Virus record (IMG/VR): IMGVR_UViG_3300029309_000331
Coordinates: 1-24,575 of that record
Length of the DNA stretch: 24,575 bases
From: a virus
Reading direction: 5' to 3' (one strand)
Shown in pieces: positions 7,337 through 20,325 of this stretch. The position numbers and the translations under genes are program-made. Position 1 is the stretch's first letter, and every line of letters starts with the position of its first letter. The notes under the pieces were generated by a model, which saw only the letters and a program-made list of their open reading frames with translations, ran no database searches and had not been told where the DNA came from.

Positions 7337-7724
7337 TCGTTCAAATTTTACCGGCTTGGTTTCAAAAATTCAGCGCGATTGCGTGGGCACCAGTAACAGT
7401 GATCGCGTCACCGCGACGGCGGGCATAGGCACCCGCCCCCCCATGCGCGAAAAACGTGTCCGTGCGCGACATTCGCCGTAAGGCGGCGTCCTAAACCTCT
7501 GGCAAATCAGCGTTTTCCACTCCCCCTGAAGGGGAATTACGGCGTCGGATCGGCCTCGGCTGGCTCGGCTCCCCTCGGTTTGGCGGCTTGGCAATTTGTG
7601 ACCTTTCGCAGTGCTACCCGCCAAGACTTAGCGCCATTGGAACTCACGGTCTTACCCACGTCTGAACCGATGGCGGCTCCCGAAGGGGAATAACCACGGC
7701 AAAACATCACGAAAGGACATTGCC
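7337..7724. other. Divergent intergenic region
   Basis: About 390 bases separate the leftward structural operon from the rightward module. A short leftward frame here is low-complexity and has no ribosome site, so I do not call it. The region holds a variant CCCCTGAAGGGG hairpin (7523-7534), a small GCC/GGC hairpin near 7470, and the first copy of the CCCGAAGGGGAATA element (7679-7693) just before the first rightward gene. Close to the left start, GGTAAAATTT on the minus strand could be a -10 box with a weak CTGAAT -35. No convincing promoter is seen for the right side. Confidence 0.5.
7679..7693 (+). repeat. CCCGAAGGGGAATA element, copy 1
   Basis: First exact copy of a short intergenic repeat. 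CCC-GAA-GGG(G) can fold as a tight three-base-loop hairpin and is followed by AATAA. It lies about 30 bases before the start of the first rightward gene. Confidence 0.7.
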
Positions 7725-10692: not shown

Positions 10693-12309
10693 ATGGACCT
10701 GATTAGCTACGCCAACAAATACATCCCACAAAGGGCTTGCTCTCACGAGCTCGACCCCGTGACGTGCGCTGCTTACGCCCGCCTCATGGAAGAGTGCGCA
10801 GACAAGACGGGCACCGAGCGTGTCGCTCTGCTCAAGTCGTGGATCATGAGCAACTGCGAGCTCAGCCCCGAGCAAGTGGACGCCGCCTTCACTCGTACCA
10901 GCCCTGAGAACCGCATCTTGGACACCGATCCTGCCCACCCCGAAGTGCAGAAGATCAACAGCATCACGCTGTCCGGCATCATCAAGTACATGCCCGAGCA
11001 GTCGTTGCAGTTCGCCGCTTTGTTGCAGTGCCTCGCACTCACATCCACACATGACGACTTCATTTGGTTCGGTCTCGACCGCAGAGAATGCGTGCAAGAC
11101 AGCAACTACGCCACTGGTTGCTCGGCTGGGTTTGCACGTATGTGGGCCCAAAGTGTCGTAGCCCTCCACGACCAAGCGATGGAAGAAGCCGGTCAGGCAC
11201 CAGCCACCACAGCCGACGAGCCAGCCACGTCCCTGCCCGACCTTGACCCCGCCGTTCAAGCCATGCTCGACGCCACGTTGAGCGGTGCCGGTGTGCCAAG
11301 TTACGACGAGATCAAATCGCAGATCGAGGCCGCAGCCAACAACGCCAAAGGCGGGCTGACCGTCAACATCGGCAACGTCGCCTATGCCAGTGGCTCGGAT
11401 GACGTGCCGGACCTCGACGACGAGGTGAAGTCCAGTCGTCTAAGCGAGCTGGGCCTACCCACCAACCATGATTTGCCGGTCAACGTACTGTCGTGGTCGT
11501 TCGACCACCCCGGCATCCCCGCCAAGATCGAGGGCTACCATTTCCGGCCCGAGCTGGTGGACAGTCTGGCCTACGCTCTGACGGTCAACGAGCGCATCTA
11601 CCTGTCGGGCCACACTGGCACCGGCAAGTCGAGCCTCGTGGATCAGGTCGCTGCCTACCTCAACTGGCCTGTTGTTCGGGTCAACTTCGACAGTGAGATC
11701 AGCCGCATGGACCTCATCGGTCGTGAGGTACTCACTCAAGAGGACGGCACAACGGTCAGCAAGTTCGTCGATGGCATCCTGCCAACGGCCATGCAGCAAC
11801 CATGCATCCTGCTGCTGGACGAGATCGACTTCGTGCGGCCTGACGTGGCCTACGTTCTGCAACGTCTGCTGGAGACCGATGGCGAGCTGGTCATCACCGA
11901 GGACGGTGGTCGCCGAGTGAAGCCACACCCACTCTTCCGCATCGTTGCGACCGGCAACACCAAAGGTCAGGGCGACGAAACAGGTCACTACACTGGTGCC
12001 CGGACGCAGAGCGCTGCCTTCCTCGACCGCTTCTGTGTATGGGCTGACGTACCGTACCTCGACGCCGCTCAGATCACCGAGATGACCGGCAAGTCTGAGA
12101 TCGCTGCCTACTACGCCGAGCACGTTGCTGCCTTCATCGACGGTCAGGTCAACCTGCCGCTGAGCCCTCGTGGTGTCACGGCATGGAACCGCATGGCCCG
12201 TGTCGTTGGCGACGTGAAGACGGCCTTCACTGCCACCCTGCTCAACCGTGCGACCGAGGCTGACCGTGCTGTCATGTCCGGCATCGCTGACCGAGTGCTC
12301 GCCGCATGA
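10693..12309 (+). CDS. CobS/MoxR-like AAA+ ATPase
   Basis: A 538-residue AAA+ ATPase. The ATG at 10693 has GAAAGGACACACCA before it; the longer frame upstream overlaps the DUF2958 gene in another frame and is rejected. Walker A is GHTGTGKSS (306-314), Walker B ILLLDE (372-377), with sensor-like IVATGNTKGQGDETGHY and arginine-finger candidate FLDRF (R446). The G-N-T-x-G-x-G-D-x-T-G-x-Y stretch is typical of CobS, the ATPase of aerobic cobaltochelatase, and relatives used by phages. The first ~210 residues are a helical extension not usual for CobS (about 330 residues). It pairs with the HExxH/VWA gene at 14710-16532. CobS-like ATPases remodel or load partners via a VWA protein; the target here is unknown. 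Confidence 0.85.
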   Translation: MDLISYANKYIPQRACSHELDPVTCAAYARLMEECADKTGTERVALLKSWIMSNCELSPEQVDAAFTRTSPENRILDTDPAHPEVQKINSITLSGIIKYMPEQSLQFAALLQCLALTSTHDDFIWFGLDRRECVQDSNYATGCSAGFARMWAQSVVALHDQAMEEAGQAPATTADEPATSLPDLDPAVQAMLDATLSGAGVPSYDEIKSQIEAAANNAKGGLTVNIGNVAYASGSDDVPDLDDEVKSSRLSELGLPTNHDLPVNVLSWSFDHPGIPAKIEGYHFRPELVDSLAYALTVNERIYLSGHTGTGKSSLVDQVAAYLNWPVVRVNFDSEISRMDLIGREVLTQEDGTTVSKFVDGILPTAMQQPCILLLDEIDFVRPDVAYVLQRLLETDGELVITEDGGRRVKPHPLFRIVATGNTKGQGDETGHYTGARTQSAAFLDRFCVWADVPYLDAAQITEMTGKSEIAAYYAEHVAAFIDGQVNLPLSPRGVTAWNRMARVVGDVKTAFTATLLNRATEADRAVMSGIADRVLAA

Positions 12310-12377
12310 GCCCACTCGATATTGCGCTGGTCTTGGCACTCCTTGCCATGACCGGCTTCGCCTTCTGGCCCAACTGA
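12306..12377 (+). CDS. Possible 23-residue membrane peptide
   Basis: A minute frame, MSPLDIALVLALLAMTGFAF, ending WPN. Its start overlaps the ATPase stop as ATGA, the arrangement used by confirmed neighbours. Nearly all residues from 4 to 21 are hydrophobic, giving one membrane helix. It ends 12 bases before the next start. No independent ribosome site is needed if it is coupled. It could be chance reading through a spacer; its hydrophobicity and exact coupling are the only support. Confidence 0.38.
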   Translation: MSPLDIALVLALLAMTGFAFWPN

Positions 12378-12389
12378 GAAAGACCGACC

Positions 12390-12770
12390 ATGCTTATCTT
12401 CCATACCCAACTGATTGACCCCGAGCGAGGGATTATACGCTCTTCTGTGTGCCACCGCCTTTCTGACGCCAAGGCCACCTTGGCCGCATACATGGTGGAT
12501 TACACAGGCTCAAGTATTCCGACGACCATGCACACCTCAAGCCTCATCGAGTGGTTCAACGAGAACCAAGAGGCCGCCGTCATAACGTGCGCCTTCTACG
12601 ACCCTGACGACGAAAGGAGCACAGAGTTTGTCGCGTGGGACGAAAGAGGCAACAAGCCCGCGATGACAGTCGGCGAGGCTATCGCTCTGGCCGACGAAGA
12701 CGAAGACGAGGGCGAGGACGACGACGACGACGGCTTCCTCATGAACGTGGAGGCGGCTGGCCATGCCTAG
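12390..12770 (+). CDS. Unknown protein with acidic tail
   Basis: A 126-residue protein starting MLIFHTQLIDPERGIIRSSV. GAGAAAGACCGACC immediately before the ATG is one copy of the recurrent start signal. The N-terminal 75 residues look like a small alpha/beta domain. Residues ~99-114 are almost pure Asp/Glu (ADEDEDEGEDDDDDG), followed by a short end FLMNVEAAGHA. Such acidic tails are found in DNA mimics and in proteins that bind basic partners; nothing here identifies the target. It overlaps the next gene by 8 bases. Confidence 0.6.
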   Translation: MLIFHTQLIDPERGIIRSSVCHRLSDAKATLAAYMVDYTGSSIPTTMHTSSLIEWFNENQEAAVITCAFYDPDDERSTEFVAWDERGNKPAMTVGEAIALADEDEDEGEDDDDDGFLMNVEAAGHA

Positions 12771-13050
12771 TGACATCCCAACCGCCCGCAAGCTGCTCGA
12801 CGAGGCACTCGTTGCCATGGATGAGCGCACTCGCCTGTCACTCATTCGCCGAGCCCGTGAGCTCATGACCCGTGACAGTCCCATCCGACGAGCCAGCGTC
12901 CAGAAGCGCATGGACAGCGACATCGCCAAGTCCATCCGTCTAATGGCTCGCACCAACCCCGACATGCACCAGACCGACATCGCCGCTGCGCTTGACGTTA
13001 ATCCGGGTCGAGTGAGTGAAGCGCTCAACGACAAGGAGACCAAGCATTGA
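12763..13050 (+). CDS. HTH DNA-binding protein
   Basis: A 95-residue basic protein starting MPSDIPTARKLLDEAL. The C-terminal part carries a helix-turn-helix: IRLMARTNPDMHQTDIAAAL-DVNPGRVSEAL (about residues 58-90), with the 'Q-x-x-I-A-x-x-x-x-V-x-x-x-R-V-S-E' signature seen in many phage and plasmid regulators. The first half is helical and may dimerise. It overlaps its upstream neighbour by 8 bases and its downstream neighbour by 4, so all three are co-translated. It probably controls transcription of this module, or DNA replication; the target is unknown. Confidence 0.7.
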   Translation: MPSDIPTARKLLDEALVAMDERTRLSLIRRARELMTRDSPIRRASVQKRMDSDIAKSIRLMARTNPDMHQTDIAAALDVNPGRVSEALNDKETKH

Positions 13051-13541
13051 ACCTGTTCTTCCTCGACCGTGACCCTGTGCTTGCGGCGCAAGCTCAGTGT
13101 GACAAGCACGTCTGTAAGATGATCATCGAAACCGCTCAGATGATGAGCACGGCCCACATGCTGGGCTCCATGTTCAACGTCTCGGGCCTGTATCTACCCA
13201 CACACGAAAACCATCCCTCGACCGTGTGGGTTCGGTCGTCACCGTCCGCCTATCGGTGGACGTGGCACCATCTCAAAGCGCTGTGTGAAGAATACACGCA
13301 CCGCTACGACCGCATCCACGCCACGCAGCGCAAGTTGCTGCACCGTCTGTTCGCTCAGCCCATCACTGAGGGCAACGAGTGGCGTGATCCCCCGCAATGT
13401 ATGCCCGACAAGTTCAAGCAAGACGATACCGTCGAGGCTTACCGTGCGTTCTACCGGGGCAGCAAGGTCAGCTTCGCTCGCTGGACCAAACGCCCTTCCC
13501 CCCACTGGATGACAATCGCAGCCAACCAGCACGCTGCATAA
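13047..13541 (+). CDS. Conserved phage protein (CDKHVxKM family)
   Basis: A 164-residue protein whose best start is a TTG at 13047 overlapping the previous stop (TTGA). AAGGAG lies 8 bases before it, which decides the start. The order of motifs MNLFFLDRDPVLAAQAQCDKHV-C-KM, then NHPSTVWVRSS, CEEYTHRY, PPQCMPDKFK and EAYRAFYRGSK...WTKRP is that of a family I know from many phages (including cyanophages) and some bacteria, always without an established function. The conserved Cys, His, Asp and Lys residues suggest an enzyme. No signal peptide is present. It is encoded between two HTH proteins in the CobS-like module. Confidence 0.75.
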   Translation: MNLFFLDRDPVLAAQAQCDKHVCKMIIETAQMMSTAHMLGSMFNVSGLYLPTHENHPSTVWVRSSPSAYRWTWHHLKALCEEYTHRYDRIHATQRKLLHRLFAQPITEGNEWRDPPQCMPDKFKQDDTVEAYRAFYRGSKVSFARWTKRPSPHWMTIAANQHAA

Positions 13542-13554
13542 CCGGAGACCGACC

Positions 13555-14148
13555 ATGCTTAACAAGATCATTCCTACCCTCAACGGTACTGGCCCTACGC
13601 CAGTGCCGGCATCGACCACCACCACTGCACCGAATGCGCGTAAACGCAGAGGCCCCCGCCCAACTAGAGGCGCGGCCAAGGCTGTGGCTGACATGATACG
13701 GATACGTCAGGCCAACAAGCTGAGCCAGAGCCAAGTCGCCGACTTACTAGACGTTCACTTCACCTGCGTATCGAAGTGGGAGACCCGAGGCTCGCTACCG
13801 AGAGCACACACCCTGAACAAGCTCCGCGAGTTCAATGCGGCCTATGCTGATGGAGCACCATCGGAAGCGCCCAAGGAAGAGCCAAAGAGCCAGCAGCACA
13901 TCCTCACCCGTGACGGCGAGCTGCCGTTGCGCTTCAAGGGTGTGAAGCTGGGCTCGTACCTGCTGCCAGACGGTCTGCTGACCATCTACCAGACGGACGG
14001 CGGCCAAGTAGTGTGGGATTTAGCGGGCATCGTGAACTTCGGCTCGGCTGACGAGTTGGTCCAGTATTGGGCCGGGTCCAAAGAGCAGGACAAGGTGCTC
14101 GCCTTCGCCGCAGAGTGCGGCCTTGAGATCTTCGAGGACATCGCCTGA
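13555..14148 (+). CDS. XRE-family HTH regulator
   Basis: A 197-residue protein with a Cro/CI-type helix-turn-helix at about residues 46-92 (MIRIRQANKLSQSQVADLLD...VSKWETRGSLPRAHTLNKL). It is preceded by a basic Thr/Pro-rich leader and followed by a Glu/Pro/Lys linker and a C-terminal domain of ~90 residues (LPLRFKGVKLGSYLLPDGLLT...) that may sense a ligand or dimerise. The start has GGAGACCGACC directly before the ATG. It ends the transcription unit: a CCCGAAGGGGAATA copy and a strong terminator follow. A Cro/CI-type protein in an element with integrases may be the lysogeny repressor, but no Ser/Lys autoproteolysis motif is seen. Confidence 0.82.
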   Translation: MLNKIIPTLNGTGPTPVPASTTTTAPNARKRRGPRPTRGAAKAVADMIRIRQANKLSQSQVADLLDVHFTCVSKWETRGSLPRAHTLNKLREFNAAYADGAPSEAPKEEPKSQQHILTRDGELPLRFKGVKLGSYLLPDGLLTIYQTDGGQVVWDLAGIVNFGSADELVQYWAGSKEQDKVLAFAAECGLEIFEDIA

Positions 14149-14159
14149 GTGGGAAGCCC

Positions 14160-14173
14160 CCCGAAGGGGAATA
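14160..14173 (+). repeat. CCCGAAGGGGAATA element, copy 5
   Basis: CCCGAAGGGGAATA, within a longer C run, begins 12 bases after the HTH gene's stop and abuts the terminator stem, as copy 4 does. Confidence 0.75.
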
Positions 14174-14207
14174 GGGTCGGCAGCACAAGCTGTCGGCCCT
14201 TTCTTTT
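14173..14207 (+). terminator. Intrinsic terminator
   Basis: AGGGTCGGCAG-CACAAG-CTGTCGGCCCT forms an 11-bp stem including two G-T pairs with a six-base loop, followed by TTTCTTTT. It ends the transcription unit containing the CobS-like gene and the XRE regulator. Confidence 0.85.
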
Positions 14208-14491
14208 GAGACGAGACGTGCCGTTGTTAGCGGCTAGTGGGCGGTGCCTCCTCCCATGACGAGAAGCGGTCTAACAGCCGCAAAACTACAGGGCCGATGG
14301 TAGTAGCCACCGTTAACATCCTTACCGATGGTAGTAGCCCGTGATGAAGGAAGCGTTAGCGGGGTGTTGGGGAGACGTTTGAACCTACAGTCCGAGCCAC
14401 TACGCCATAGGCGTCGTGTCTTCGATTGGCAGGAAGTCAGTGAACCAATGCTCCGCACCTTCACCTTTCCAACCGAACAGGAGACCGACCA
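14208..14491 (+). other. Non-coding leader with repeats before the CobT-like module
   Basis: About 285 bases without a credible gene. It contains a 15-base direct repeat, CCGATGGTAGTAGCC, at 14294-14308 and 14325-14339 (31-base period); a GCGGCT/AGCCGC inverted pair (about 14230 and 14277); and a small ACGCC-ATA-GGCGT hairpin near 14402-14414. I tested the region by eye for a tRNA and found no consistent cloverleaf. It may be a structured 5' leader or regulatory region for the genes that follow; no clear sigma70 promoter is visible. Confidence 0.45.
14294..14339 (+). repeat. 15-base direct repeat pair
   Basis: CCGATGGTAGTAGCC occurs twice, exactly, with starts 31 bases apart, in the non-coding leader ahead of the CobT-like module. 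It may be a protein-binding site or a structural RNA element. Confidence 0.7.
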
Positions 14492-14713
14492 ATGACCAAA
14501 GATCACGACATCTACGACATCACTGTGACGGCACCCGTGAGGACCGTCTTCGAGATGCCAATGACCATCTACGCACGCACCATGGAGGACGCCAAGGCCA
14601 TCGCACTCAGCGAGGCGCGCCGCCTGACCGACAACAACGAGGGCTGGTGGTCCGAAGACGAGAGCCATCGCACCCTCACCGGCAAGTTCAAAGCACAAAG
14701 GAGCAAGGTATGA
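14492..14713 (+). CDS. Small unknown protein
   Basis: A 73-residue protein, MTKDHDIYDITVTAPVRTVF..., with AGGAGACCGACCA before the ATG (a copy of the recurrent start signal with a good ribosome site). The pattern of a beta strand ITVTAPVRTVFEMPMTIYA, then a helix TMEDAKAIALSEARRL, resembles small alpha/beta phage proteins; I cannot assign a family. Its last bases overlap the start of the CobT-like gene by 4 (ATGA), so it is the leading, coupled cistron of that unit. Confidence 0.6.
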   Translation: MTKDHDIYDITVTAPVRTVFEMPMTIYARTMEDAKAIALSEARRLTDNNEGWWSEDESHRTLTGKFKAQRSKV

Positions 14714-15651
14714 GCAGCAAACTGATGGCACTGCACCAGCACGAGCTGGTCGAGACAGCCAAACTATTCTCCGAGCAGGGCAAGAGCCTGCGCGTTGAGT
14801 TCCACGAGGGTGGAGCCAAGATGAACGAGGGTATCGTTTACCTACCAAGTACGCCGCCTGACGTGGCGCTGAGCGAGCGAGGCCAGCGCTTTGACCGAGC
14901 CATGGTGGATCATGAGGCGGGCCACCACGTCATCTCGACGATGGGTCCGCTCAAGCAGGCCGCTCAGAGTGGCGACAAGCGCTTGCTTTCGTTGGTGCAG
15001 GGCATCGAGGACTGCCGAGTAGAGCATGCCGTGTTGGACAAGTACCCCGGCGCTCGCAAGAACCTCGGTACGGCACGGGACATTGTGTACGAGGGCGTGG
15101 CTGAGGCCATCGCCCAATCCAAAGACGCTCGCCAGTTTGCGTCCACCGGCATTATCAATGCGTGGTGGGAGAAGAACGGCGGCTGGCTGCGTTCGAGGCC
15201 CTGCCGCAACAGATACAGGAGTTCTGCCGCAAGTACGCCGACTTGGCGCAGAAGTTGCCCACCAAGCGTGGGTCCATGCCGACCGTCAAGCTGGCCGAGC
15301 AGGCGCTCGCAGAGCTTGAGGCCATGGGTGTGCAGCAGGTCGAGGACGAGCAGCAGGTCGAGGTCGAGGTGCCGAGTGCTGGTGGCGACGGCGATGAGCA
15401 AGAGCAACAGCAGTCGAGCGACGGTGACGGTGACGACGAGCAGCAGTCGGAGAGCGGCAGCGCTGACGGCGCTGCCGATGATGAGCAGCAGAGTGCGTCG
15501 TCGAGTGGGTTCGAGCCCGGTGATGAGCAGCACTCTGTCAGCTTCGACGATCACCACGAGCGAGTGCGCGACGAGGAGAGCGACGGCACGCCGGGTGGCC
15601 AAAGGCATGGTCGGCACGGCGACGTGTGCGATTGGGTGCCAAATCAACTGA
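14710..15651 (+). CDS. CobT-like protein, N-terminal part (HExxH domain), frame interrupted
   Basis: Starts MSSKLMALHQHELVETAKLF, overlapping the upstream gene by ATGA. Convincing coding runs to about residue 160 (near 15190): LPSTPPDVALSERGQRFDRAM, then VDHEAGHHVIS with an HExxH motif at H68-H72, and GIEDCRVEHAVLDKYPGARKN, where E100 lies 28 residues after the motif, as in zinc metallopeptidase-like folds. After INAWWEKNGG the frame turns into low-complexity Arg/Ser sequence up to the stop at 15651, while the natural continuation lies in the -1 frame. So this is the first half of a CobT-like gene split by a -1 frame change. The real protein would be about 600 residues, close to CobT's length. 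The 3' half of this frame is probably not translated. Confidence 0.7.
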   Translation: MSSKLMALHQHELVETAKLFSEQGKSLRVEFHEGGAKMNEGIVYLPSTPPDVALSERGQRFDRAMVDHEAGHHVISTMGPLKQAAQSGDKRLLSLVQGIEDCRVEHAVLDKYPGARKNLGTARDIVYEGVAEAIAQSKDARQFASTGIINAWWEKNGGWLRSRPCRNRYRSSAASTPTWRRSCPPSVGPCRPSSWPSRRSQSLRPWVCSRSRTSSRSRSRCRVLVATAMSKSNSSRATVTVTTSSSRRAAALTALPMMSSRVRRRVGSSPVMSSTLSASTITTSECATRRATARRVAKGMVGTATCAIGCQIN

Positions 15652-16532
15652 GACTGGCGACGGTCGATGATTGGGTCGCTGCTCGTCGGCTGACGGGCTA
15701 CGCCGAGAGGATCATGAACGTCTACGATAATTGCTACTCCACGGTGCCGTGGGACGAGGGGCTGACTGCGTGGCCAGACATGCTGCGCACTGTGCAGACC
15801 GCCGTTGGTCGGACACAGGCCAAGTTGCAGGAAGCGTTTATGAGCGCCTCTGAGCGCAACTGGTCCGGCGGGTACGATCAGGGCGCGCTCGACCCCAAGG
15901 CCCTTGTACGGGCTTATCAGGGCCGTGACGGGGCATTCCGGCGCAAGGATACCGGGCAGGACATTGATGGTGCTGTGACGCTGCTGCTCGATTGCTCGGG
16001 CAGCATGAGTGAGCAGGACAAGCAAGACGTGTCTGGGCCAATGACCGTTGCACTGGCCATGGTGCTTGAGCGGATGGGCGTGGCTGTCGAGGTGCGTGGG
16101 TTCACCGGCCTGATGCACAAAGACGGACAGTTCGACATGATCCTGAAGCCGTTTGATATGCAGGTCAGCCGGTGTCGTGCGGGGCTGGGGCAGGCCGCCA
16201 TGATGGCCTGTGCGCAGAACTATGACCCGGCGCACGTCGCGACAGCGGCCCACTCGCTGATGCGTCGGCCCGAGGCCAAACGCATGCTGATCGTGCTGAG
16301 TGACGGCTCGCCCACCGGGTTCGGGCGAGCACTGAGGCGGCTGTGCCGTGCGCTGCACGAGAAGAGCCCCATCGAGTTGCTCGGTGTCGGCATTCGAGAC
16401 CGCTCGGTCGAGGATTACTACCCCAACTGTGTCGTCGTGAACGAGCTGAGCGAGTTGAGCACGGTCGTGGCAGGGCGCATTGCGCAGACCTTGCTGGGGC
16501 GTGGGCTGACTGAGATGCGGAGGGCTGCGTGA
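15162..16532 (+). CDS. CobT-like protein, C-terminal part (acidic linker and VWA domain)
   Basis: The -1 frame continuation, open from before 15162 (a GTG with no ribosome site) to 16532. It begins sensibly at about LAAFEALPQQIQEFCRKYAD. Residues ~58-150 are a Glu/Asp/Gln/Ser linker typical of CobT. The C-terminal von Willebrand A domain has the MIDAS motif DCSGSM (D277), a helix with VALAMVLERMGVAVEVRGF, and LSDGSP (D381). CobT is the VWA partner of the CobS ATPase in cobaltochelatase-type complexes, and the matching ATPase is at 10693-12309. A HExxH domain plus VWA also recalls DUF2201-type proteins encoded with MoxR ATPases. The expected product is the fusion with the 14710 frame. Ends TGATG into the next gene. 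Confidence 0.8.
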   Translation: MVGEERRLAAFEALPQQIQEFCRKYADLAQKLPTKRGSMPTVKLAEQALAELEAMGVQQVEDEQQVEVEVPSAGGDGDEQEQQQSSDGDGDDEQQSESGSADGAADDEQQSASSSGFEPGDEQHSVSFDDHHERVRDEESDGTPGGQRHGRHGDVCDWVPNQLRLATVDDWVAARRLTGYAERIMNVYDNCYSTVPWDEGLTAWPDMLRTVQTAVGRTQAKLQEAFMSASERNWSGGYDQGALDPKALVRAYQGRDGAFRRKDTGQDIDGAVTLLLDCSGSMSEQDKQDVSGPMTVALAMVLERMGVAVEVRGFTGLMHKDGQFDMILKPFDMQVSRCRAGLGQAAMMACAQNYDPAHVATAAHSLMRRPEAKRMLIVLSDGSPTGFGRALRRLCRALHEKSPIELLGVGIRDRSVEDYYPNCVVVNELSELSTVVAGRIAQTLLGRGLTEMRRAA

Positions 16533-17700: not shown

Positions 17701-18624
17701 ATGCGCACAACCAAAGGACCGACCAACCTCGCCAACCACCGCAACGCACAGCCCAGAGAGCAGGGCATTCCCCACGAAAGTCTGGCCAACACCAAGGCCA
17801 GCAAGCTAAACCCCGACATTGCGGAGATCGTCCGCTACTCCAAGACGAGCCGCGATGTCGGGGACAGCAACCGTTTCTATCTTGAACGATGGGCCGAGAG
17901 ATGTGGCTCGGTACGGTTGCAACTGATTACACCCGCAATGCTACGGAACTACGTTGATCGAGGCCAGACGAGCGGCTCGCAGCGACGTGAGTTGGGTGCG
18001 CTGATTGCAGCCGTCAATCACTGGCTGCGAGAGAACGACCCCATGAGTTCTCGGTCGTTGAGCATGGCTCGGCCTGCCGACAATCCGGGCCGGGATCGTT
18101 ACGTCACCGTCGATGAAGAGTTGGCCATGGAGCTGGCGTTTCCGCCCGAGTTGTGGGCGGTGGCTCGCTTCTGTTTGCGGACGGGAGCAAGACCGTTCGA
18201 GGCTCGGGCGTTGAACGGGAAGGACTTCAATGCTCAGAGGGGCACCGTCAAGCTGCGGCACAGGAAGGGCCAGAACAAGCTGCACGTTCGAGAGGTGCCT
18301 GTGCGAGATGAGGTCGTGCTGGCGGACTTGCTGGAGCGGCTGAAGGAGAGTGGACACTCGGAGCTGTTTCGGTGCCAGCAAGGTGGCCCGTGGATCAGGA
18401 CCAACTTGGCCCGTCAGTTCGAGCGGTATGCTGCGCTCGCTGGCTTGGTCGATCTGAAGTGGACCGATCTGCGGCATACCTTTGCCACACGGGTGGGGCG
18501 AGGTGGGGCCAGTGCCACCACCATCGCCGATCTTTTGGGCCACACCAACTTGCAGCTCGTCATGCGGTATGTGCAGACGGATAGTCTGGATCGTGAAGCC
18601 GCGATCACTTCGGCAGTTGCCTGA
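17701..18624 (+). CDS. int: Tyrosine recombinase/integrase 1
   Basis: A 307-residue phage-type integrase. The N-terminal SAM-like core-binding domain (about 35-115) is followed by the catalytic domain. Box I is CLRTGARPFEARAL with R164; the beta-strand Lys is K189 (LRHRKGQNK); box II is WTDLRHTFATR with R258; then LLGHTNLQLVMRYVQ with H281 and the nucleophile Y290. The first His of the usual H-x-x-R is Thr255, so one catalytic position is non-canonical. It starts 8 bases after the LuxR-type gene with AGAGGA before the ATG. The 3' end overlaps the convergent second integrase by 20 bases. The expected role is site-specific integration/excision. Confidence 0.9.
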   Translation: MRTTKGPTNLANHRNAQPREQGIPHESLANTKASKLNPDIAEIVRYSKTSRDVGDSNRFYLERWAERCGSVRLQLITPAMLRNYVDRGQTSGSQRRELGALIAAVNHWLRENDPMSSRSLSMARPADNPGRDRYVTVDEELAMELAFPPELWAVARFCLRTGARPFEARALNGKDFNAQRGTVKLRHRKGQNKLHVREVPVRDEVVLADLLERLKESGHSELFRCQQGGPWIRTNLARQFERYAALAGLVDLKWTDLRHTFATRVGRGGASATTIADLLGHTNLQLVMRYVQTDSLDREAAITSAVA

Positions 18625-19927
18625 CCCGGATGTTCGGACGCCACGAGGCCATGAAGATGTGGGCGTCCGGCTCGAAGGCTCGCAGATAGTGCTTGGTGAC
18701 GGCGGCCATGCCGCCTTTGATCTCGTGACCTACGATGGCTTCGATCACACCGTCGGGTGTGTTCGGGGCCATGCGTGGGGCGAGAGTGCGGAAGGTCGAG
18801 CGAGTGCTGTGCTGTGTCTCAACGCGCGAGATGCAGCCGACCTTCTCTCGAGCCCGAGTGCAGGTGACACGCCAACGTGCCGAGTTGTTGTCGAAGTCGT
18901 GAGGGATACCAGCGAAGTACATGCCGTCGAGAAGTGGGCGGCTATGGATGATCAGTTGAGCCAATGGCGTCAATGGGATCATGCGAACGCTGGCGACGGT
19001 CTTCGCTACGGTTTCGGGAATGCGCCACTCGTTGGCGTCGAAGTCGATCTGGTCGGGGGCCATGTTGGCCAGCTCACGGATGCGTGCGCCGGTCAGCAGG
19101 CCGAGAGCCCACATGTCGGCTGCGCCGAGTTCGTTGATGTCGATGAGCTGGTCGTAAATCTCCTGCCATCTCTCAAGGGTGACGGGCGAGTTCGCCTCAC
19201 GGCGACCAACGAGTTCGTCACGAGTTGGGCGACCGACTTTGATCGTACCCCAATCGGTGGCGGTGTAAGGACGGGCGTGATCGATGAGGAAGTCGCGGAT
19301 CACGGAGCGAACCCGGCTTTGTTTTATGCCGGCATAGCTGTGCTTGATCTTGCCGTCGAACTGAGAGCGGGCCCACTGCTGCCAATGTTCGGGCGTGACG
19401 TGCTCAAGGTAGTGTCGTCCTTCCGCGTGCTGGTGGGCCATGAACTCCTCGAAGGTGGCGGCTCGTTGGGCGATGGCGGCTTCGCCGATGGGTGCGTTTT
19501 TGTTGTGCTCGAGGACGGCGTACAGCGGCGTGAGAGCGCCGAATGCTTCGATCACGGTGCGCGCTGGGTCGGCTGGCGGGTGAAGGTCGGGAGCCATGAT
19601 CTCATCGACGTGCTGCTCGAGCTGCTCGAGGGTGTGACGTGGGTGGGTCTGCTCGAAGTGCCGGTCGATGGCGTCGAAGACGTTGAGGCTGGCGATTTGG
19701 GCTCGAAGGACTTCGGCTCGGTAGCTGTCACGGTTGACGGCTGCCTTCGCTTTAATGATCTGGGCGCGCATGCTCGTGATGATAGGAGCGGCGAGGCGTT
19801 CGGCTTCACGACGGGACTTGGTCTTGAGGCTGACGTGCATTTCGGTGCGCTGAATAAGGGGCTGGCAGTCGGAGGGAACACGCATTCTGACGTGGTAGTG
19901 CCCGGACGGGGACTTGCTGAGGTACAT
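18605..19927 (-). CDS. Tyrosine recombinase/integrase 2
   Basis: A 440-residue integrase of the long type. I place the start at the ATG at 19927, giving MYLSKSPSGHYHVRMRVPSD, a typical integrase beginning. It is preceded by AAGGACCGACCAA, the recurrent start signal. The frame stays open 100 codons further, but that stretch reads as non-coding. The catalytic set is complete: R282 (LLTGARIRELANM), K309 (VAKTVASVRM), H373/R376 (QHSTRSTFR), H401 (VGHEIKG) and Y414 (TKHYLR). It lies tail to tail with integrase 1 and is only distantly similar to it. Having both suggests either distinct attachment sites or an acquired second recombinase. Confidence 0.92.
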   Translation of the reverse strand: MYLSKSPSGHYHVRMRVPSDCQPLIQRTEMHVSLKTKSRREAERLAAPIITSMRAQIIKAKAAVNRDSYRAEVLRAQIASLNVFDAIDRHFEQTHPRHTLEQLEQHVDEIMAPDLHPPADPARTVIEAFGALTPLYAVLEHNKNAPIGEAAIAQRAATFEEFMAHQHAEGRHYLEHVTPEHWQQWARSQFDGKIKHSYAGIKQSRVRSVIRDFLIDHARPYTATDWGTIKVGRPTRDELVGRREANSPVTLERWQEIYDQLIDINELGAADMWALGLLTGARIRELANMAPDQIDFDANEWRIPETVAKTVASVRMIPLTPLAQLIIHSRPLLDGMYFAGIPHDFDNNSARWRVTCTRAREKVGCISRVETQHSTRSTFRTLAPRMAPNTPDGVIEAIVGHEIKGGMAAVTKHYLRAFEPDAHIFMASWRPNIRVRQLPK

Positions 19928-20003
19928 TTGGTCGGTCCTTTTTGCTGGACCGGCAGAATGACTGGTGTGGAGCGATATGGCGGTAGCGTGGAGTGCAGTT
20001 TTC

Positions 20004-20012
20004 TGTGGATAA
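20004..20012 (-). promoter_or_regulatory. Perfect DnaA box
   Basis: TGTGGATAA on the plus strand, i.e. TTATCCACA on the minus strand, matches the consensus DnaA site exactly. I see only this single perfect copy, about 80 bases upstream of the integrase 2 start. Confidence 0.5.
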
Positions 20013-20325
20013 GTTATGCAAGTGCTGTAACTACAGTGGCTTACGGGGATTTTGAAGTGGCTGGCGTGGCGGGTGGTATCGACCTGTTTCAGATTGTAAC
20101 AGCCGAAACGATGGTCGTCGTAAGACATTGTAATCACAGCACATTTTTCAGGTGTCCACACGGAGCGTGTGGAGGCTTGAATGCAACGATGTGTGGTGAA
20201 CGTGGAGTTGGCGTGACTGATTTCCACGGAAAATTTCGGTGCGTGTGCATTGACGATGCCGAATATGTCACCGAAAAAACATGGACGTTACGTTATCACA
20301 AACCGTTGGTTCGTAATGTCCAAAC

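Follow-up and report, generated by a model that had tools for sequence, protein, structure and literature searches.

A phage CobS–CobT pair in which CobT keeps a zincin signature absent from the cellular CobTs examined

The DNA analysed here, hereafter the window, is IMG/VR record IMGVR_UViG_3300029309_000331 in full (24,575 bases), and is probably an incomplete piece of a phage genome. It encodes a CobS-type ATPase and a CobT-type partner, the latter combining an N-terminal domain bearing the HExxH signature of zincin metallopeptidases, an acidic linker and a VWA domain with a metal ion-dependent adhesion site (MIDAS). The pair lies in a plus-strand block that runs, in order, CobS, an endonuclease V-like protein, a helix-turn-helix (HTH) regulator, CobT, a LuxR-type HTH protein and an integrase; the minus strand holds terminase and portal protein genes. 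The features on which our argument draws are as follows.

10693–12309, plus strand: CobS-like MoxR-type AAA+ ATPase, 538 aa (profile matches; AAA core almost the same as in contig L003)
11608–11631, plus strand: CobS Walker A motif GHTGTGKS, residues 306–313 (sequence and alignment A2)
11818–11823, plus strand: CobS Walker B acidic pair, D376–E377 (sequence and alignment A2)
14710–15186, plus strand: CobT N-terminal domain with the zincin signature, 159 aa in frame (relatives' profiles and model)
14911–14925, plus strand: HEAGH, residues 68–72 (kept in 67/73 phage relatives and 0/71 cellular CobTs)
15007–15012, plus strand: E100–D101, the likely third metal ligand with the residue next to it (hardly varying among phage relatives)
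15181–15196, plus strand: likeliest site of a −1 frame break (codon-usage likelihood)
15162–16532, plus strand: open reading frame (ORF) for the acidic linker and CobT_C/VWA domain (profile matches)
15990–16004, plus strand: MIDAS motif DCSGS (sequence; alignments A1 and A3)

As a first-pass annotation of this DNA had recognised, the ATPase is of the MoxR/CobS type and has a long N-terminal extension: it matches AAA_5 (E 6.5e-19) and phrog_249 (E 1.5e-50), with an AAA_5-type P-loop, Walker A and B motifs and a VWA partner. In that partner, the VWA half matches CobT_C (PF11775, E 5e-21) and carries both a DxSGS-type MIDAS (DCSGS) and an SDG motif. The window N-domain on its own has no match in Pfam, so its relatives were used for the family test. 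Pfam CobT (PF06213) was matched by 27 of 28 aligned N-domains of relatives, and a profile–profile comparison of phage with cellular CobT N-domains extended over 118 columns (probability 95.1%, E 3.5e-8), placing HEAGH opposite a cellular CobT stretch that reads like A-D-x-x-A-L; against the solved cellular CobT N-terminal chain, the phage profile gave a weak match (E 0.092). Judged by these comparisons, the domain bearing the zincin signature is the CobT N-terminal domain. The earlier annotation had named both CobT and DUF2201_N (PF13203) as families for comparison; the second was rejected on sequence, as no match was found in the window or, with E allowed up to 1, in any of the 28 N-domains. 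It had also treated a zincin-like domain and an ordinary CobT N-terminal domain as alternatives, an opposition that does not hold: the domain is CobT, and yet it has the zincin signature. Separately, the stretch NALEDvwlEr..deYpGa..N of the phage N-domain profile is matched by PDB 9zq6_B (AcrIIA26, a solved anti-CRISPR) at E 0.0086, possibly by chance.

In the window, the zincin HExxH (H68, E69, H72) and the downstream acidic residues E100/D101 stand in a conserved register. Shuffling the domain yields HExxH in ~2% of copies, so the motif is not rare by chance; the weight rests on its in-register conservation among relatives. As selection on the motif had to be avoided, we collected phage relatives by the VWA half alone (73 with an N-domain), leaving a first sample of 48 viral loci, picked by the peptide VDHEAG, out of the motif count; cellular CobTs (n=71) were located via their neighbouring CobS. 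HExxH is in register in 67/73 phage CobTs, nearly always with E100 and usually with D101 (NxxED...E), and in none of the 71 cellular ones. No HEAGH-type relatives were found in bacterial chromosomes in the A1 scan, a limited one that needs near-exact peptides. In the VWA-domain tree, one branch (SH-aLRT 98) sets all cellular sequences apart, and viral CobTs lacking HExxH are interspersed with those that carry it (L084 being counted as 'no' solely because its N-domain sits on a separate ORF). As this tree was rooted on the cellular group, the older state, with or without HExxH, is not readable from it. Most close phage pairs show purifying selection on the zincin domain, with a ratio of non-synonymous to synonymous change (dN/dS) of 0.06–0.32, similar to that of the VWA domain; one very close pair, with few changes, gives 0.78. 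On sequence grounds, then, cellular CobT appears to have lost HExxH, and viral CobT keeps HExxH...NxxED...E.

Structure prediction points in the same direction. The AlphaFold model of the window N-domain (pLDDT, the predicted local distance difference test, 86) has as its closest solved structures nearly all HExxH zincins, at Z up to 6.8, including BepA, the mini-zincins jannalysin and selecase, Wss1, SPRTN and ArdC, which suggests a mini-zincin-like fold for the N-domain of viral CobT. The model of the HExxH-less cellular CobT N-domain (from L142–L221; pLDDT 94) has the same order of elements, and its top structural matches are selecase and BlaR1. With a like fold and zincins as its top matches, the cellular domain looks like a zincin without a metal site, and could possibly be a dead metallopeptidase within the cobaltochelatase. 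The HExxH reading, which the first-pass annotation had offered as its own, is thus strengthened by the conservation among phage relatives, the zincin-like model and purifying selection.

Could the pair nonetheless be what its names imply, that is, viral cobaltochelatase subunits which borrow CobN from the host and raise cobalamin output? Such a reading has been published: cobST genes are widespread in tailed viruses and were proposed to act with host CobN (PMC8651126), and homology of both CobS and CobT speaks for it. Indeed, the published viral cobST cluster (PMC8651126; CRP-810-type phages, PMC11288001) consists of the same two homologous genes in the same kind of phage, the CobS of CRP-810 being 44% identical to that of the window over 66% of its length; it differs in that the window genes lie apart and cobT is frame-broken, and it was described as cobaltochelatase subunits, an intact zincin site not being discussed. 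In cellular CobNST (PDB 9UKA, 21VU, 21VT), the CobS ATPase, the CobT_C VWA domain and the CobT N-terminal domain are likewise homologous to the viral ones, but there the partner is CobN and HExxH is missing throughout, and the cellular CobS of Burkholderia is without a long conserved extension of the window type. We found CobN in 0/49 phage records, complete phages included, and nowhere in the annotated surroundings, the window itself being a fragment and host CobN lying outside the search. By two marks the pair departs from an aerobic cobaltochelatase (CobNST): no CobN accompanies it in these records, and CobT is not of the HExxH-less type that all 71 cellular sequences represent. Nor do the neighbours suggest it, as replication and transcription genes recur: sigma factors, replication proteins, DNA polymerase and ligase in phage relatives; DNA polymerase III alpha, primase and helicase in isolates; and a sliding clamp with its clamp loader in a cyanophage. 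We consider chelatase work improbable, in line with the first-pass annotation, which had noted the missing cobalamin genes. Its proposal that the two genes form a linked pair also stands, since no more than 776 bases separate CobS from CobT in 72/73 relatives, the exception being near a contig end. Nearly all relatives have the two genes adjoining, compared with a spacing of 2.4 kb in the window.

Partners of the same kind extend beyond these phages. Cyanophage S-CAM9 encodes, near CobS, a 'peptidase' (L222:923-2995) with HEVGH...NVTEDARIE followed by a VWA domain, so the cyanophage cobS, too, has a partner of this type; relative to the window, the system is very diverged, its CobS (350 aa) is without the long extension and its genes are ~2.7 kb apart. 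The 'peptidase' label on cyanophage cobT had been judged mistaken (PMC8651126). The conjugative plasmids pMAQU02, pAZI09 and pW6G (L138, L139, L140) encode HExxH-VWA proteins with the same N-domain as the phages, and a CobS-like ATPase lies nearby in two of the three. These plasmid systems are strongly diverged and differ from the phage ones in their conjugative context and in an additional DUF3150 gene alongside; their regions hold ssb, recT, exonuclease or toprim genes.

Evolution is much faster in the CobS extension than in its ATPase core. Between the window and L003, the AAA core has a dN/dS of 0.06, and two patches of the extension stand out by their dN:

10717–10908, plus strand: fast-evolving patch 1 of the CobS extension, residues 9–72 (dN against L003)
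11029–11220, plus strand: fast-evolving patch 2 of the CobS extension, residues 113–176 (dN against L003)

Here dN reaches 0.27 (patch 1) and 0.28 (patch 2), as against 0.004–0.007 in the rest of the core. Pairs drawn from several further phage lineages repeat this, with dN/dS of 0.22–0.83 in the extension and 0.03–0.19 in the core, many of these pairs having members in common and so not all being independent. A conserved motor coupled to a fast N-terminal domain is the pattern that would be expected of a target-recognition part; we did not find an earlier description of a fast CobS extension.

Taking these strands together, and with little more than even confidence, we posit that the pair is a CobS unfoldase coupled to a zinc protease-like domain that acts on phage or host proteins, and not a cobaltochelatase, with both catalysis and target being predictions. 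This is argued by HExxH in 67/73 viral against 0/71 cellular CobTs, the fold, purifying selection, gene linkage, the absence of CobN and the neighbours, and also by the single-branch split between viral and cellular sequences, the fast CobS extension and the retention of the motif on plasmids and in cyanophage. The motor, adaptor and metal-site domain are assigned by homology; that the metal domain cuts, the motor feeds and the CobS extension chooses the target is what we infer. In such a machine, the CobS hexamer would pull on or unfold a target protein and the VWA-MIDAS domain would dock CobT onto CobS or onto that target; held at the tip of its acidic tether, the zinc domain would cut the protein presented to it. 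Choosing the target would fall to the CobS extension, and the protein chosen, whether from host or phage, may be one involved in DNA replication or gene expression. Of the roles that the first-pass annotation had raised, proteolysis and a part in conflict are likewise predictions.

Several points weigh against this. Protein-cutting by viral CobT is a prediction, none being known. The structural Z values lie below 8, such that the likeness to a zincin fold is suggestive and not proof, and Foldseek alone is weak, with a best E of 0.49 and no significant match for the window N-domain against PDB. Synonymous change, too, is elevated in the fast CobS patches relative to L003, so recombination with diverged alleles may contribute to their divergence. 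The window cobT is itself broken, as discussed below. Lastly, the conservation of H68, E69, H72 and E100, which the first-pass annotation had proposed to check, holds for the large majority, but six of the 73 phage relatives are without HExxH, one via a one-residue insertion, and the motif is missing in isolates L008 and L009. As relatives without HExxH exist, catalysis is not always needed. In favour of the reading, on the other hand, histidine loss is accompanied by a change at D101 in five relatives (L009, L079, L081, L091, L113).

Retention of the pair in relatives without HExxH would also suit a chaperone resembling NorQD or CbbQO, which remodels a target or inserts metal into it, HExxH holding or delivering the metal with no cutting; MoxR–VWA pairs of known function do just this (PMC9976466, PMC13036017). 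We regard this as rather unlikely, considering that E69, the catalytic glutamate, is kept alongside the histidines in 67/73, which is beyond the needs of a plain metal site. A virion-assembly chaperone with peptide processing, the role suggested for the MoxR and metallopeptidase-vWA proteins of a jumbo phage (PMC7824862), is favoured by analogy of architecture: in phage Atu_ph07, too, a MoxR-type ATPase has as its neighbour a VWA protein whose N-terminal domain is metallopeptidase-like (we equate this pair with the published one by accession-series position and architecture, not by a read accession). Yet the Atu_ph07 pair belongs to another family, DUF2201_N (E 4.2e-38), and was rejected as a relative since CobS and CobT profiles find neither gene; in the window and its relatives, the genes nearby serve replication and transcription, and some relatives reside on plasmids, which have no virions. 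A role in virion assembly strikes us as improbable, marginally more so than chelatase work. The DUF2201_N-VWA protein of Agrobacterium phage Atu_ph07 (L231:1045-2334) reads HQILH in place of HExxH, so that copy may be inactive.

Returning to the zinc protease-like reading, the reading frame of cobT in this contig must also be considered. The first-pass annotation presented the partner as one intact gene; all the parts it listed (HEAGH...E, acidic linker, VWA MIDAS) are present, HEAGH and E100 at the residues it gave, but they occupy two frames, and the break at 15181–15196 was overlooked. HEAGH and E100 lie in the frame of 14710–15651, and the linker and VWA domain in the −1 frame, 15162–16532, the switch being located by codon-usage likelihood trained on the window's other genes. 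Related CobTs are nearly always one gene (a single ORF in 72/73 VWA-selected relatives having both halves in view), so the break is most simply explained by faulty assembly or by a recent mutation. The only split relative in that sample, L084, has a clean break within the linker at a TAATG junction, and HHTV-2 is a published case of split cobT (PMC8651126). In the viral contigs there is no close relative of the window CobT by which to judge the break, as L003, the sole close contig, terminates within cobS. Elsewhere, in L034, cobS and the cobT N-domain are each spread over two ORFs; frame breaks are thus also present in other metagenomic contigs.

Two further explanations bear on this break. 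The cobT of this contig could be a real pseudogene, decayed such that the pair no longer works in this phage, which would concern the contig and not the family, and is compatible with every other reading. The two frames and the long branch of the window VWA sequence (1.68 changes per site) favour decay, but both halves retain coding signal and key motifs with no further break seen, and purifying selection on the core of the partner CobS is strong; we think decay possible, though unlikely. Programmed −1 frameshifting, yielding a short zincin protein and a full-length product, would agree with the direction of the break and has a precedent in the chelatase relative chlD (PMC9227772). It was rejected and is barely credible: no X XXY YYZ slippery heptamer is present in 15060–15300, the zero frame stays open for ~155 codons past the break, and 72/73 relatives need no shift. 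The break region also holds no homopolymer longer than 3.

As to the rest of the window, Roseobacter phage CRP-810 has the same gene set in a similar order, with protein identities of 36% for the endonuclease-like, 27% for the LuxR-type and 31% for the integrase protein. Two distinct tyrosine-integrase genes stand tail to tail, at 17701–18624 (plus strand) and within 18605–20227 (minus strand). A leader-like repeat around CCCGAAGGGGAATAAC occurs in four copies, at 7519, 7673, 8243 and 8541, of which at least two lie directly ahead of small plus-strand genes; an Rfam search of the window gave no match.

Phage cobST genes are already known. Viral cobS belongs to the cyanophage core (PMC3037559), is listed in PMC9301287, with reference to earlier work, among globally conserved viral auxiliary metabolic genes, and is commonly interpreted in terms of B12 metabolism. 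In the openly accessible literature, new CobT structure papers aside, we found no report that an intact zincin site generally sets viral CobT apart from its cellular counterpart. We tentatively put forward, at somewhat less than an even chance, that the globally common viral 'cobS/cobT auxiliary metabolic genes', among them the core cobS of cyanophages, have no part in cobalamin synthesis and instead belong to a single ATP-driven zinc protease, spread across mobile elements, that attacks or matures replication and gene-expression proteins; cellular cobaltochelatase CobT would then carry a dead version of its zincin domain. The clean contrast in HExxH makes this testable by point mutation. Were viral CobT an active zinc protease, ecological conclusions based on B12 would have to be revisited, and an uncharacterised protein-processing machine would be common to phages, phage-plasmids and conjugative plasmids; such activity would also hint at the origin of the cobaltochelatase N-domain.

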